DNA of 64,000 nt from Gaertneriomyces semiglobifer (lineage: Eukaryota > Chytridiomycota > Chytridiomycetes > Spizellomycetales > Spizellomycetaceae). Shown here piece after piece: positions 1,217 to 64,000 of the stretch. The stretch's first letter is position 1. Every line of letters begins with the position of its first letter. A program made the translations under genes and the position numbers. The notes under the pieces are model-generated. The model was not told the origin of the DNA, ran no database searches, and worked only from the letters and a program-made list of their open reading frames with translations. The stretch spans positions 682,001-746,000 of the forward strand of contig JAHLKF010000004.1 of NCBI GenBank assembly GCA_025558075.1, given 5' to 3'.

Positions 1217-3133
1217 TCAAACGCCTGCCCAGTTAAATAATTCTAATGCGAGAGCGACTACCTCGTCCGGCACAATGCGCATGTAACGAACAATACTACT
1301 ATAATCGTGGCGTGCAATGTTCAGCTCTTTCAGCACTTCTTTGGCGTCAACTAGTATCCTGGGATTCTCTTTAGCGGCATCTAGAACTCTATTCATTTCT
1401 CCTAAAAGCCCCAACGGAAACATATGGTCGATGTCCTTGGGAGTCATTTTGCGTGTTCCGGCTCGGAATGCGTCGACGTATTCACAAGCGAAACGGTTTA
1501 TAATTGCTTGAAGGTGATCTTCAAGGAGCGTTTGAAATTTCTGCCGGAAGACTTCCGACATTTGCTTTTTCTCGGGAAAGAGGACACGGAAGATGGCTTC
1601 TTCATCCAACAAGTAGTTCTCAATCTCCACGCAAGACCAGGAGTGCCAGAGCAATCCTTTCGGCTCGAGGCACCTAGCTTCACTCGCTTCATCTAAAAAG
1701 GAGTCACGATCCTTTCTCTGCAGGGCAATAGGCTTGTAGTCGCCATCAACGACGACGGCCACCTTCAGCTTTTGCGTTTTTGTTGATTCGCGCATCCAGT
1801 TTCCCATACTTTTAGCAACATCTGCATAGACGTGCGCTGATTTCTTCCCGCCTAACCAATCGGCGACCACTTTACTAACAAATGCGGCTGCTCTCAGTGG
1901 ATCTATGCGATTCATCCACATCTGTAACAGATTCCAGTCCGATTCGTCTTCCATAAACAATAGATGTCGTTTTGCGGACAGCAGACACAATTCATCCCGT
2001 CGGCGAAACATGCGAGACGCCTCAGGAAACGTGTGCACCAAGGCGTCCAAATCGGATAATGTGTATGGAACATCGGCGCCAGATGCAGCTACGCTGGCTG
2101 CGATTGGTTGTACACTGAGCAGATCCGCTGAGTGAGTGGCAATGATAATTTGCTGGACGCCGAGCTTTTGCATCTCTGCAACCAGTAGGGGAATCAGATG
2201 GGGGTGGAAGGGTGTCGATGGCTCATCCACTGCCAATATGTGCAATGCCTGCTGGAGCGGAGCCGCGTTCATCCCAGTGCTGTTCGCAGTACTATCCACG
2301 CGGCTTTGAAACCGGACAACACTATCGAATATGATTGCCGCAAACAATGTAACGGCGTAGCATACTCCGCTACCTTCTTCATGCCATGGTCGTCGTACTT
2401 GCTTTCGTTTGCGGCCACTCTCAAATTCCTGAACGAATTCCAACGCAACAGCATCCTCATCTACAGCCACTTCCAACACACCAATGCGCGGAAAGAGCGA
2501 CTTTATTATCGTTTGCAGCTGACGGTAGGCCCCTATATGCTTCGTAGACAAGTATTGTACCACTTCTAGAAGATACTGGCTTTGTCCGTTGCCGGTACGC
2601 ATGGCGTTGACAAGACCTCCAGGAATAAGCAGGTCTAAAGGCGAGTCGGGGCCTGTGAGCGCTGAGCGTTTGCTTTTGCGAGAGATGGAATCAAATCTCA
2701 GATCTCTCGGAAACAATGTACATCGCACTCGCGGTACCGACGACGCCGGTGCGTCGGGTTCCACTGATACCACAAGATCAGTGCCATGTACGTCGGACAA
2801 ACGGAACATGATCTTGACTTCATTCGTCAATGTGGCCCCAATATGCACCGGCTCTTCGCCATTTCGACATAGTAGTGAACGGTCGCCACTCATGGATAGC
2901 GTGTCCAGAACTTGTCGCGCATCGTCATGTAATTTCAATGTGCTTGACTTCACAGTTCCATCCACGGCCGTTGCGTATTCCACCAGATATGCAAAAACGG
3001 CGACAGCCTGAAGGAGCGACGTCTTTCCCGACCCATTCGTTCCGACAAATGTAGCCAAACTACCAGCCAGCTCAATGTGCAAATCCGAGAACCGGCGAAA
3101 CGCCAACAAATGGAGGGTCTGAATATAAACCAT
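1217..3133 (-). CDS. OLD-family-like AAA ATPase with C-terminal TOPRIM/DUF4435-type nuclease domain
   Basis: A 638-residue single-exon protein (ATG at 3131-3133, TGA at 1217-1219). The N-terminal half is an ABC/SMC-type AAA ATPase. It has Walker A GTNGSGKTSL near residue 32, an EEGSG signature near residue 252, Walker B ILAVDEPSTPFHP near residue 301, then IIATHSADLL. The C-terminal half looks like a TOPRIM or DUF4435 domain: an acidic strand LLFMEDESDWNLL near residue 390 and VVVDGDYKP near residue 462. This layout matches bacterial OLD-type proteins, which act as DNA nucleases in phage defence and repair. No introns are visible, although neighbours have three to five each. It lies between two highly expressed housekeeping genes. 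A bacterial origin is inferred, not shown. The real substrate in a fungus is unknown; an SMC-like repair role is an alternative. Confidence 0.75.
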   Translation of the reverse strand: MVYIQTLHLLAFRRFSDLHIELAGSLATFVGTNGSGKTSLLQAVAVFAYLVEYATAVDGTVKSSTLKLHDDARQVLDTLSMSGDRSLLCRNGEEPVHIGATLTNEVKIMFRLSDVHGTDLVVSVEPDAPASSVPRVRCTLFPRDLRFDSISRKSKRSALTGPDSPLDLLIPGGLVNAMRTGNGQSQYLLEVVQYLSTKHIGAYRQLQTIIKSLFPRIGVLEVAVDEDAVALEFVQEFESGRKRKQVRRPWHEEGSGVCYAVTLFAAIIFDSVVRFQSRVDSTANSTGMNAAPLQQALHILAVDEPSTPFHPHLIPLLVAEMQKLGVQQIIIATHSADLLSVQPIAASVAASGADVPYTLSDLDALVHTFPEASRMFRRRDELCLLSAKRHLLFMEDESDWNLLQMWMNRIDPLRAAAFVSKVVADWLGGKKSAHVYADVAKSMGNWMRESTKTQKLKVAVVVDGDYKPIALQRKDRDSFLDEASEARCLEPKGLLWHSWSCVEIENYLLDEEAIFRVLFPEKKQMSEVFRQKFQTLLEDHLQAIINRFACEYVDAFRAGTRKMTPKDIDHMFPLGLLGEMNRVLDAAKENPRILVDAKEVLKELNIARHDYSSIVRYMRIVPDEVVALALELFNWAGV

Positions 3134-59376: not shown

Positions 59377-62300
59377 ATGGATATTGCACATCCAGTTAGT
59401 CGAGAGATCACCTCGGTCGCTTTCTCCTTCTTCAACTCTGAGGAGATTCGCAAACTCTCCGTCAAGCAGATAACAAATCCCCAACTATTTGACAATCTCG
59501 ATCATCCGAATAAGGGCGGGTTATATGATCCAGCCCTCGGCCCTTTAGATAAGGGGAACAGTTGTGGAACGTGCTCACTGGGTTACTTTTCATGTCCGGG
59601 TCACTTTGGTCACGTCGATTTGGCTGCTCCAGTATACAACCCAATCACTTTTCGACTATTGTACAAGCTTCTTCAATCATTATGCTTCTACTGTCATCAC
59701 CTGAGATCTTCCCGCGTGGTGGTGGCCCATTATGCTGCCAAGCTACGACTAATTTATGCTGGTTTGATCACGGAGGCAGCTGCTCTCGACCAGTTTATCA
59801 CCGTGAAAGGTTTACGGTTGAGCGCTGCAGACAAAAAGGATAAGAAGAAATCAACAAAAACGAAAACTGTTGATGACGAGGCGGAGGAAGCTGATGAAGA
59901 GGCAGAAGAGGAGGATGAGGATGAGGACAAAATGGACATTGATGATATTACTGGTCCCAAGACAGAGGAACAGACCCTCGCCCGGATACAGGAGTACGTC
60001 GAGCAATGTTTAGCCGATGCTGGGGAGCAAGGTGTTATTAGAAAAGCAACACTGGTTACTGAAGCCTTACGAAGGCTGGAAAGACAGTTCATGGCTTCCA
60101 TTCCAACTGGCAATTGTGCCAACTGCCGTGGAGCGAGCCCAAAGTTTAGAAAAGAAGGTCAACACAAGATTTTCCAGAAACCACTTAGTGCCAAGCAAAA
60201 GGCTCAGATGGACGCTCGTGGACTCAGGTTTCAGAAGCTTTTTGGCACCGCAGATGACAACGAGGAGTCGGATTATCCGGAACCTTCGTCCAAAGAAGCC
60301 CAAGAAGAAATGCGCCGTCTTGCGGCCGAAGCCGGGACGGGTTTGGTAGAGTTGGCTGTTTCACCGGAGGTGGTTGAAACCGAAGTCGCTGTTAGTCGGG
60401 ACAAGTTCTTAACGCCTCTGGAAGTACAAGAGCACTTCATCTTGCTCTGGTCCAAGGAAAAAGCAATTTTTGATTTGCTCTACGGTGCCACATCAGTTGA
60501 AACGGGAAAGCGCACGTCGAGTTGGCGTATGTTTTTCATGGAGGTCGTACCTGTAACTCCGACCCGTTTTCGACCTGTTTCAAAGATGAACGACATGCTA
60601 TATGAGCATCCCCAGAACACTCACCTGACGGAAGTCTTGAAGGCGAACCTTTACATTCAAGACTTGCGCCAGCAAGAGCGCGACACTCTTGCTGCCATAC
60701 CGGACAAAACGGGCAAGCTATATCAAGAGCGTCATGCCGAGTTTTTGCGCCGGACTGTTGAGGCATGGATTAAGTTGCAGACCAGTGTCAATTATCTAAT
60801 TGACAGTTCAAAGGCACCGTTGACTGCCGGCGGAAAGTTGGCCCCACTTGGTATTCGGCAACTGCTCGAAAAGAAAGAGGGTCTTTTCCGGAAACACATG
60901 ATGGGTAAACGTGTGAACTTCGCCGCACGTTCTGTTATCTCTCCCGACCCTTACATTGAAACCAGCGAGATCGGCATACCCCCAGTGTTCGCCCAGAAGC
61001 TTACGTATCCCGAACCTGTAACGCACCACAACATCAAAGAGCTGAGGAATGCAGTCATAAATGGCCCTTTCAAGTGGCCAGGGGCAACCCACGTGCAGAA
61101 CGAAGATGGAAACCTGGTCAATTTGGCTTTGTATGATGAAGCCGGCCGTACCGCAATAGCTAACCAGCTTTTGACTCCGTCAATTGGTGCTGGGCAGGAC
61201 GATGGTTCCTTTGAAGCACATGTGAACAAGAAGGTTCTTCGCCATCTGCGTAACGGAGACTTCCTTCTCCTTAATCGACAGCCCACTTTGCACAAGCCCT
61301 CTATTATGGCTCACACTGCTCGTGTGCTGCCTGGAGAAAAAACAATTCGAATGCATTACGCCAACTGCTTGGCTGGTGACTCGAAGGTCCTTATGGCTGA
61401 TGGTACCACTATGCGCGTTGACGAAGTTCCCACTGGTGCGCAAGTGTCTGCCTGGGCTGCTCGTGCACAGCCTCCGGCTGTCCCTGTCACGGTTGAGCCC
61501 AAAACTACTCATGATATCGGTGGTTCTCACACCGTTACCAAGGGTAAGTGGTACCGCGGTACTCAAGAATGTTTGACTCTCACCCTCGAAGATGGTCGTA
61601 CGCTCGTTGGAACCCCGGATCACCGCGTTTTGGCCTGCCGTCCGTCTACCAACGATGAGTCTCTCGATTTTGCCAATGCTGTCTACGTTCCTATTTCTGA
61701 GCTTTCATCTGAGGGTTCTAAGAACGGCTGGCGTGTTGTGTGCTCTGCAGCTGATGGAATTCGGGCGGCTAATGAATCTGTGGAAGAACGGGGAAAACTG
61801 AACTTCTTCACGCTCGCGGTCGCTGATGTTCGCTCGGTTGGTGCCCTTCCGGTCTACGATTTGGAAGTCAAGGATGTTCACAACTTCGTTGCCAACGGTA
61901 TTGTGGTCCACAACTGTAACACATACAACGCCGACTTCGACGGTGATGAAATGAACGCGCATTTCCCACAGAACGAAATTGGGCGTGCCGAAGCCATGCT
62001 GATTGCCCGAACGGATAAGCAGTACCTTGTTCCGACAGATGGCGGGGTATTGCGTGGTCTTATTCAAGACCATGTCGACGCCGGTGTAGATATGTGTTCC
62101 AGGGATACGTTTTTCACACGGGAGGAGTATATGCAATTAGTTTATACTTGCTTACGGCCCGAAGGGATGTCTGGAAATGTTATTGGGAATGGCAATATTG
62201 AAGAGCAGATTGTTATTGGTGACAATGGGAAAGTCGTGACCATCGCACCAGCAATGTACAGACCACGACCCCGGTGGACTGGAAAGCAGGTCATCACAAC

Positions 62301-64000
62301 GGTTCTACTCAACTTGACTGCCAGCCATGAGCCGCTCAACCTCAAATCGAAAGCAAAGATTCCTGCAAAGGCCTGGGGTCCCACGGCCCCGGAGGAGCAA
62401 AACGTTCTGTTCATGGACGGTCATTTGCTGACTGGAATCCTTGACAAATCCCAATTTGGTGCTAGCGCGAACGGTCTCGTCCACGCCGTTTATGAAGTTT
62501 ACGGTCCGGCGTACGCGGGTAAACTTCTGTCCATCCTTGGACGGCTTTTTACCTCTTACCTGCAAATGGTGGGATTTTCCTGTCGCATGGATGATTTGCG
62601 GTTGACACACGAAGGCGATTCCCTGAGAAAGGAATTGATACGGAACTCCCAGAAGATGGGTCGCGAGGCCGTTATGGAGTACGTGGGCTTGGTGGACAAA
62701 ACAGGCAAGCCTGTATACAAGGGCAAGCAGGTTGAAGCGGTTTTAAAGCAGAAGTTGGAGGGTGTCCTGCGAGTCGATGAAAAAATGGCCGGATTAGATT
62801 CGGCGATGAAAGCAAGGACCAACAAAGTCACCTCCAATATCATCTCTAGCACGGTGCCAGACAAGTTACTGAAGCCGTTCCCCCGCAACAATATGCAAGT
62901 CATGACGGTCTCCGGAGCCAAAGGGTCGAACGTGAACGTATCCCAAATTTCCTGCCTTCTTGGGCAGCAGGAGTTGGAAGGTCGGCGCGTACCGACAATG
63001 ATATCTGGAAAGACACTCCCCAGTTTCCAAGCTTTTGACACTTCAGCTAGGGCTGGTGGTTACATTACCGGTCGATTCTTGACGGGGATCCGTCCACAAG
63101 AGTACTTCTTTCACGTAAGTCAGCTGATGGATCATTGGTCGCAGATCAAATGAAAACTCATCCGTCATTTTGTAGGCTATGGCTGGTCGGGAAGGTCTGA
63201 TTGATACCGCCGTCAAGACATCGCGTTCCGGTTACCTTCAGCGCTGTTTAATCAAGCCCCTGGAAGGTCTGAAAGTTAACTATGACCATACGGTCCGGGA
63301 TTCCGACGGGAGTGTCATTCAATTCCATTATGGAGAAGATTCATTAGACGTGACAAAGCAGAAAACACTAACCAAGTTCGACTTCTGTGCTATTAACTAC
63401 AAGGCCTTGGTTAAAAGATATGACCCGAAGAGGCTAGCATCAGCCGACATTGACACAGAGAGCGTCGAGAAGCTACGAAAGCGAGCACGGAAGAAGGATA
63501 TCCCGTTAAAGGATCCTGTTCTGGACACCCACAGCCCATCTCGCGTGCTTGGTGCGGTTAGTGAGAAGTTCGCAGACAAACTTCAAGCATACGTAGAGTC
63601 GAACCAGGACGGCCTATTGAAGGCGAAGAAAAGTTCTGGCAAGAAGCACCCTTGGAGCGGAGAGCCCATTTCACAAGATCGTTTTAAGCTTTTGATGAAC
63701 CTGAAGTATATGAACTCCTTGGTTGAGCCGGGTGAAGCTGTTGGATTACTTGCAGCCCAATCGATCGGAGAACCATCAACACAGATGACTCTGAACACTT
63801 TTCACTTTGCAGGTTTTGGAGCGAAAAACGTCACGTTGGGTATCCCACGTTTGCGAGAAATCATTATGACTGCATCCGATAAGATTAAAACACCAATGAT
63901 GAGGCTACCTCTGCTGGAGAAGGCGAAGAGTCAAGGAGATGTGCTTTGCAAGCAGATTAGCCGATTGGTACTGGCACAAGTAATGGAAGGCATTACCGTT
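59377..64000 (+). CDS. RPA190: RNA polymerase I largest subunit (A190/RPA1), intein-containing precursor, 3' end off window
   Basis: Catalytic subunit of the nucleolar polymerase that makes rRNA. Exon 1 is 59377-63114, intron 63115-63175 (61 bp), exon 2 from 63176 to beyond the window. The start at [14 protein letters not shown] matches yeast A190; an upstream in-frame TTG was rejected. Clamp zinc site: [17 protein letters not shown] (residues 63-79). A K/D/E-rich insert lies near residues 150-190, and a second zinc pair in CANCRG. Then [37 protein letters not shown] and the catalytic [15 protein letters not shown] (magnesium aspartates). Exon 2 holds [20 protein letters not shown] and the trigger-loop region [19 protein letters not shown]. 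Residues 664-846 of the precursor are an in-frame intein, annotated separately. Only Pol I-type sequence ([28 protein letters not shown]) is seen, which excludes Pol II and III. Confidence 0.97.
61366..61914 (+). mobile_element. Mini-intein in RNA polymerase I largest subunit
   Basis: A 183-residue protein-splicing element encoded in frame between HYAN and [11 protein letters not shown]. Block [14 protein letters not shown] with Cys1. Block [13 protein letters not shown] with the TxxH motif (Thr83, His86). Block [18 protein letters not shown] then IVVHN with penultimate His182 and terminal Asn183, followed by Cys+1 of the extein. The residues that start and finish splicing are all present, so it should be active. 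Only about 70 residues lie between blocks B and F and no LAGLIDADG or HNH motif is visible. It is therefore a mini-intein without a homing endonuclease. Removal restores a normal Pol I sequence around the active site. Confidence 0.95.

Follow-up and report, generated by a model that had tools for sequence, protein, structure and literature searches.

The insert in RPA1

The gene for the largest subunit of RNA polymerase I (Pol I; RPA1 or A190) in Gaertneriomyces semiglobifer contains a class 1 mini-intein beside the catalytic NADFDGD motif. Exon 1 of the gene was located at 59377–63114 on the forward strand of the window, which denotes the whole 64-kb stretch of DNA analysed, and was assigned to RPA1 by its translation and by matches to Pfam Rpb1 domains 1–4. 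The open reading frame opened with an N-extein of residues 1–663 (59377–61365, +; Pfam RNA_pol_Rpb1_1 and _2), of which the last residues were RMHYAN. Directly after HYAN stood the insert, residues 664–846, with 183 amino acids from Cys1 to Asn183 (549 bases, 61366–61914, +), in frame and free of stop codons. The C-extein (61915–63114, +; Pfam RNA_pol_Rpb1_3 and _4, translation) made up the remainder of exon 1. It was followed by a 61-bp GT-AG spliceosomal intron (63115–63175, +), recognized in the DNA and from the precursor protein P0001, which reads FFHAMAGREG across it, and by exon 2 (63176–64000, +; DNA and translation), which continues past the end of the window. The precursor, encoded on a contig of 1,256,203 bases, had 1930 residues, and the extein without the intein 1747. 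An earlier sequence-only reading had described an in-frame insertion of 183 residues at 61366–61914 of the gene for the Pol I largest subunit, and this was borne out to the exact base.

Three curated models scored above their cut-offs for the insert alone: Pfam Intein_splicing (PF14890; 43.4 bits, E 4.1e-11, cut-off 35.8), TIGR01443 (38.2, cut-off 15.6) and TIGR01445 (28.8, cut-off 24.5). When the whole frame was searched, TIGR01445 scored 24.4, which is 0.1 bit below its cut-off, and Pfam placed Intein_splicing in the middle of exon 1, among Rpb1 domains 1–4. Class 1 inteins are defined by a nucleophile at position 1, a TxxH motif in block B, a His-Asn end and a nucleophile at +1. The residues present were Cys1, T83-P-D-H86 in block B (61612–61623, +), VYDLEV...HNFV in block F, VVHN in block G ending in H182-N183 (blocks F and G together at 61852–61914, +, from TIGR01443 and the sequence) and Cys +1, the first codon of the C-extein (61915–61917, +). 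The same sequence-only reading had reported an intein with blocks A, B, F and G and with Cys1, TxxH, His-Asn and Cys +1, and the residues and models agree with it. In a search against solved structures, the insert alone matched 41 chains at E ≤ 1, of which the best were inteins (3ifj, 3.2e-8), with unrelated chains lower down. A profile built from the insert and other inteins matched 65 chains at E ≤ 0.001 (best 7cfv, 3.2e-28), and those among the 60 listed were mostly named as inteins or intein-bearing. For the HINT fold of inteins, the profile matches are by sequence, and a single predicted structure had a mean pLDDT of 42.9 and was unusable. The NADFDGD motif (61927–61947, +) was located by aligning RPA1 to the Pol I chain rpa1 of S. 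pombe (7aoc); six residues separate the junction from its first Asp, and the S. pombe chain was continuous through the same site in this alignment. The insert was thus confirmed as a class 1 mini-intein by its sequence, and it is probably active.

An intron, whether spliceosomal or self-splicing, could also interrupt a gene in this way, as could an artefact of assembly. Two observations were in keeping with such an origin. Within this gene family, the reading frame of some giant-virus-like members is lost at this motif, with group I intron matches 0.2–1 kb beyond it, and the codon use of the intein differed from that of the extein. The intein was rich in T-ending codons, with a codon entropy of 0.855 compared with 0.950–1.107 in extein windows of 183 codons; of the 184 windows drawn from 15 long frames of the 64-kb stretch, RPA1 included, one had an entropy as low, and this one may be the intein itself. 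The intein was thus more biased than its host gene, but no conclusion was based on this difference. Against an intron or artefact stood the 549 in-frame bases without a stop, the intein models above cut-off, the lack of any Rfam match at threshold within the window and the homologous intein at the same residue of a named species (see below). Removal of 61366–61914 as an intron had been named in the sequence-only reading as a result that would speak against its account; at the DNA level, GT-AG excision of exactly these 549 bases is impossible. Among 17 excision offsets tried, eight gave a continuous protein and none of the eight had GT...AG ends, so an empty reading does not come from GT-AG splicing of the exact insert. 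The intron was therefore discarded as an explanation of 61366–61914, and the intron and artefact origins together were left with next to no probability.

Elsewhere in the window, a frame of 638 amino acids (1217–3133, −) resembled bacterial defence proteins of the OLD-family ATPase/nuclease type; it lies in a chytrid chromosome. It matched Pfam AAA_15 and AAA_21 and the PADLOC models AriA, GajA, PtuA and Old (best E 7e-14).

Full-length, mini and empty forms of the site

Searched against proteins, RPA1 residues 380–662 had 4497 matches at E ≤ 1e-20 (5965 candidates), of which the best 120 were examined. The nearest named relatives over these residues were chytrid RPA1 proteins, from Spizellomyces sp. 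'palustris' (85%), Thoreauomyces (82%) and Geranomyces (82%). The site was readable in 119 of the 120 proteins, the exception (P0121) having no motif. It was continuous in 117 of the 119 and held an intein in two, namely the window's own protein and the RPA1 of Phlyctochytrium arcticum (P0050, DFS34DRAFT_683946), which is annotated as a hypothetical protein. No further RPA1 with an intein was found among the listed matches to the window intein (44 proteins) or to the P. arcticum intein (six proteins).

The P. arcticum intein shares its host gene, residue and junctions with the window intein and is far longer, with 685 residues (663–1347). The two were identical at 151 of 182 aligned splicing residues (83.0%). 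In pairwise alignment, two segments of the P. arcticum intein were absent from the window copy, a block of 492 residues (156–647) and a shorter one of 11 residues. Residues 1–156 and 648–685 of the P. arcticum intein matched the window's genome back to back in a genome search, and the alignment and this search together placed the junction that corresponds to the extra central domain at 61800/61801 (+). The window copy hence had no homing endonuclease between its splicing halves, and a related full-length allele exists, as expected of a mini-intein derived from a full-length intein.

In the P. arcticum intein, the central domain had no match among Pfam endonuclease models, and a sequence search of solved structures gave none at E ≤ 1. 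The domain contained the motifs MTDG and GGDG, and related inteins in aconitases, ribonucleotide reductases and DNA polymerases matched LAGLIDADG_3 below the cut-off of that model. Because of these motifs and sub-cut-off matches, the domain is likely a homing endonuclease. LAGLIDADG_3 had no match at E ≤ 10 in the window's genome.

The third state was found in P0045, an RPA1 encoded on another contig, of 1,048,401 bases. This protein was 99.1% identical to the window extein (1731/1747), with 16 substitutions and one indel of two residues, and had no intein. A genome search with P0045 did not find its gene in the window's own assembly. The genome as searched (20.86 Mb, 66 contigs) held one RPA1, and two remoter matches were read as RPB1 and RPC1; neither a second RPA1 nor a second intein was found in it, and the intein DNA was present in one copy. 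With one RPA1 in the genome, no intein-free copy was seen that could stand in for the interrupted gene.

Among relatives, the site thus holds a full-length intein in P. arcticum and a mini-intein in the window and is empty in P0045, which suggests that one mobile element is observed here at three different stages. The same polymorphism, with alleles of all three kinds in related fungi, has been described for PRP8 inteins (PMC1508164). The host gene differs there, and the likeness is drawn from the published description rather than from sequence.

Descent and wider relatives

In an extein tree of 20 rows, the window sequence grouped with P0045 (100/100) and P. arcticum with an intein-free Spizellomyces (93/98), the latter fork falling below the star threshold of the tool. 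Both intein carriers were placed within a clade of eight rows (100/100), six of which were empty, and the intein label required two changes on the tree. In a tree of the N-terminal blocks (23 rows), the two RPA1 inteins were sisters (100/100) with a path of 0.2, based on 88 columns common to the pair. Between the exteins of the window and P. arcticum the path was 0.63, from a model of the same type applied to a different set of columns. The exteins were 73.4% identical (1272/1734), compared with 83.0% for the inteins (Fisher p 0.004). P. arcticum is assigned to the Chytridiales in the NCBI taxonomy, yet its RPA1 extein paired with Spizellomyces in the 100/100 clade of eight.

Since the inteins are closer than the whole exteins and P. 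arcticum falls beside a species that lacks the intein, we favour, with moderate confidence and from sequence comparison, a transfer of the intein after the lineages had split. An ancestor of these chytrids may instead have had an RPA1 intein, with exact losses afterwards in the majority of lineages, among them the one leading to P0045. This older origin is possible, if rather unlikely, because an identity of 83% falls within the range of the extein itself: it was reached in 15% of 1553 overlapping extein windows of 182 columns, and the two 150-residue flanks that adjoin the site were 81.9% and 81.3% identical between the window and P. arcticum. Both carriers also fall in the single clade of eight, and for the PRP8 inteins of the euascomycetes Butler et al. 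2006 favoured vertical inheritance (PMC1508164). Vertical descent would, however, require several exact losses, given 117 empty proteins among the 119 readable (best 120 of 4497) and six within the clade of eight; the grouping of P. arcticum with an empty species and the shorter intein path likewise argue against it, the paths being from similar models on different columns. Horizontal spread therefore remained the favoured account.

Beyond the RPA1 pair, the inteins among the matches listed were remote. The next were an archaeal MCM intein (28% identity over 99% of the region) and aconitase inteins (at best 33% over 48%), and inteins of family B DNA polymerases and ribonucleotide reductases were also found. 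Four intein-bearing aconitases (P0003, P0164, P0166 and P0167) belonged to the nearer relatives of this pair. Intein-like inserts also occurred in two eukaryote-looking proteins, P0018 and P0021; P0018 had Pfam domains of the coatomer-gamma type and matched the RPA1 intein with 33% identity over 49% of the region. In the N-block tree the RPA1 pair sat on a long branch, and the deeper forks had poor support; we propose no donor. A viral donor was considered and rejected, there being no close one among the best 80 of 91 IMG/VR stretches encoding relatives. The IMG/VR stretches that matched intein residues 8–183 had best segments of 25–26% identity, and the others mostly covered the end blocks only.

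The sequence-only reading had also put inteins of archaeal polymerase A' subunits near the same NADFDGD loop. Inteins of the archaeal rPol A' and A'' subunits (Mja, Nph) were indeed earlier known RNA polymerase inteins and lie in largest-subunit homologues as well (PMC1635734). The hosts differ from ours, and none of 80 A'-type archaeal loci had an insert at the RPA1 residue (at least 80 such loci exist, and no record titled M. jannaschii was among them). With all 80 continuous, an allele shared with archaea was not supported. The existence of these inteins was upheld, and their placement near this loop was not confirmed.

Among 80 viral loci, 13 had no motif, and a motif test detected no intein at this residue in any of the 67 that had one. 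Bodo saltans virus carries inteins in large RNA polymerase subunits, polr2a and polr2b, which reportedly have no active endonuclease (PMC5871332); these are viral genes of the Pol II type and differ from RPA1 in this respect. Of 13 odd viral loci inspected closely, 12 lost their frame inside or just after NADFDGD (L192, L198–L203 and L205–L209; IMG/VR, giant-virus-like), and five of the 12 had a group I intron match at threshold 0.2–1 kb downstream. The NADFDGD motif may thus be a hotspot that attracts different kinds of self-splicing element.

Predicted splicing, possible regulation and known polymerase inteins

The Pol I largest subunit would be made as a precursor of 1930 residues in which the intein breaks the loop leading into NADFDGD. 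Self-excision would proceed through Cys1, the Thr and His of block B, the terminal Asn together with the His before it, and Cys +1, and would leave a normal A190 subunit; such steps are established intein chemistry. The ancestor would have been a larger intein, similar to the one that P. arcticum has at this residue, and would have spread among the RPA1 genes of chytrids. In the lineage of the window the central domain, the putative homing endonuclease, would then have been lost, and the close relative represented by P0045 would still, or again, be without an intein. On the sequence evidence, we consider this account of a self-excising mini-intein, descended from a larger mobile intein by loss of its central domain, very probable. 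Because the Asp residues of NADFDGD hold the catalytic metal in RNA polymerases, the unspliced precursor should be inactive, and splicing would have to precede Pol I activity.

A regulatory role was also considered, by analogy with other inteins. Splicing that depends on redox state, metals or other stress could keep Pol I as an inactive precursor and so control rRNA synthesis; as a working switch, the intein would hold the blocked-loop precursor until redox conditions, metals or zoospore germination permit Pol I assembly. The catalytic cysteines are present, the insertion site should block the active centre, copper and zinc inhibit the Prp8 intein of Cryptococcus (PMC6805012), and redox or conditional splicing has general precedent (reviewed in PMC10663303). 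The near-identical P0045 is empty, however, an indication that Pol I does not depend on the intein. The closest Cys of the N-extein is residue 250, 414 residues ahead of Cys1, and with no Cys between residues 250 and 664 the N-extein offers none there for a disulphide trap. Redox control through the catalytic cysteines, as put forward in the sequence-only reading, is therefore speculative, and we regard both regulated splicing and a switch on rRNA synthesis as very improbable. Were the switch real, the strains of the window and of P0045 would form a natural pair with and without it.

We take KOG0214–0216 to be the second-largest subunits of the nuclear RNA polymerases. Under these three groups, Green et al. 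2018 placed nuclear RNA polymerase inteins (PMC5784728). The nuclear inteins described by Goodwin et al. 2006 were found in RPA2 (Pno), RPB2 (Bde, Cst, Sas and Cre) and RPC2 (Ddi) (PMC1635734). Like the present intein, they occupy conserved active-site regions of nuclear RNA polymerases, and two are from fungi then termed chytrids; as described, they are in second-largest subunits throughout, compared with the largest subunit RPA1 here. The phrase 'RNA polymerase I intein' occurs in the same paper, where the section on Pol I covers RPA2 of Phaeosphaeria. The statement of the sequence-only reading that nuclear polymerase inteins lie mainly in second-largest subunits accords with the subunits that the two surveys name.

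The present host thus differs from RPA2, RPB2 and RPC2. No report of an intein in RPA1, RPA190, POLR1A or the Pol I largest subunit was found among the open-licence papers listed or in searches of them by exact phrase. The suggestion that the intein may be new was upheld as to the absence of a report, but the window is not the sole case, since the corresponding residue of P. arcticum RPA1 holds an intein of full length, and the 99.1% identical RPA1 is empty. The host gene and site are new as far as searched, and the mechanism is familiar.

As far as these searches show, the known hosts of inteins now extend to a largest subunit among the nuclear RNA polymerases. At least one deposited chytrid RPA1 intein, that of P. 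arcticum, is hidden under the name hypothetical protein, so a survey confined to second-largest subunits would overlook inteins of this kind. Together, the empty but otherwise near-identical P0045 gene, the mini form in the window and the full-length form in P. arcticum offer a natural set for the study of cost, homing and possible regulation, in a host gene on which ribosome production depends.
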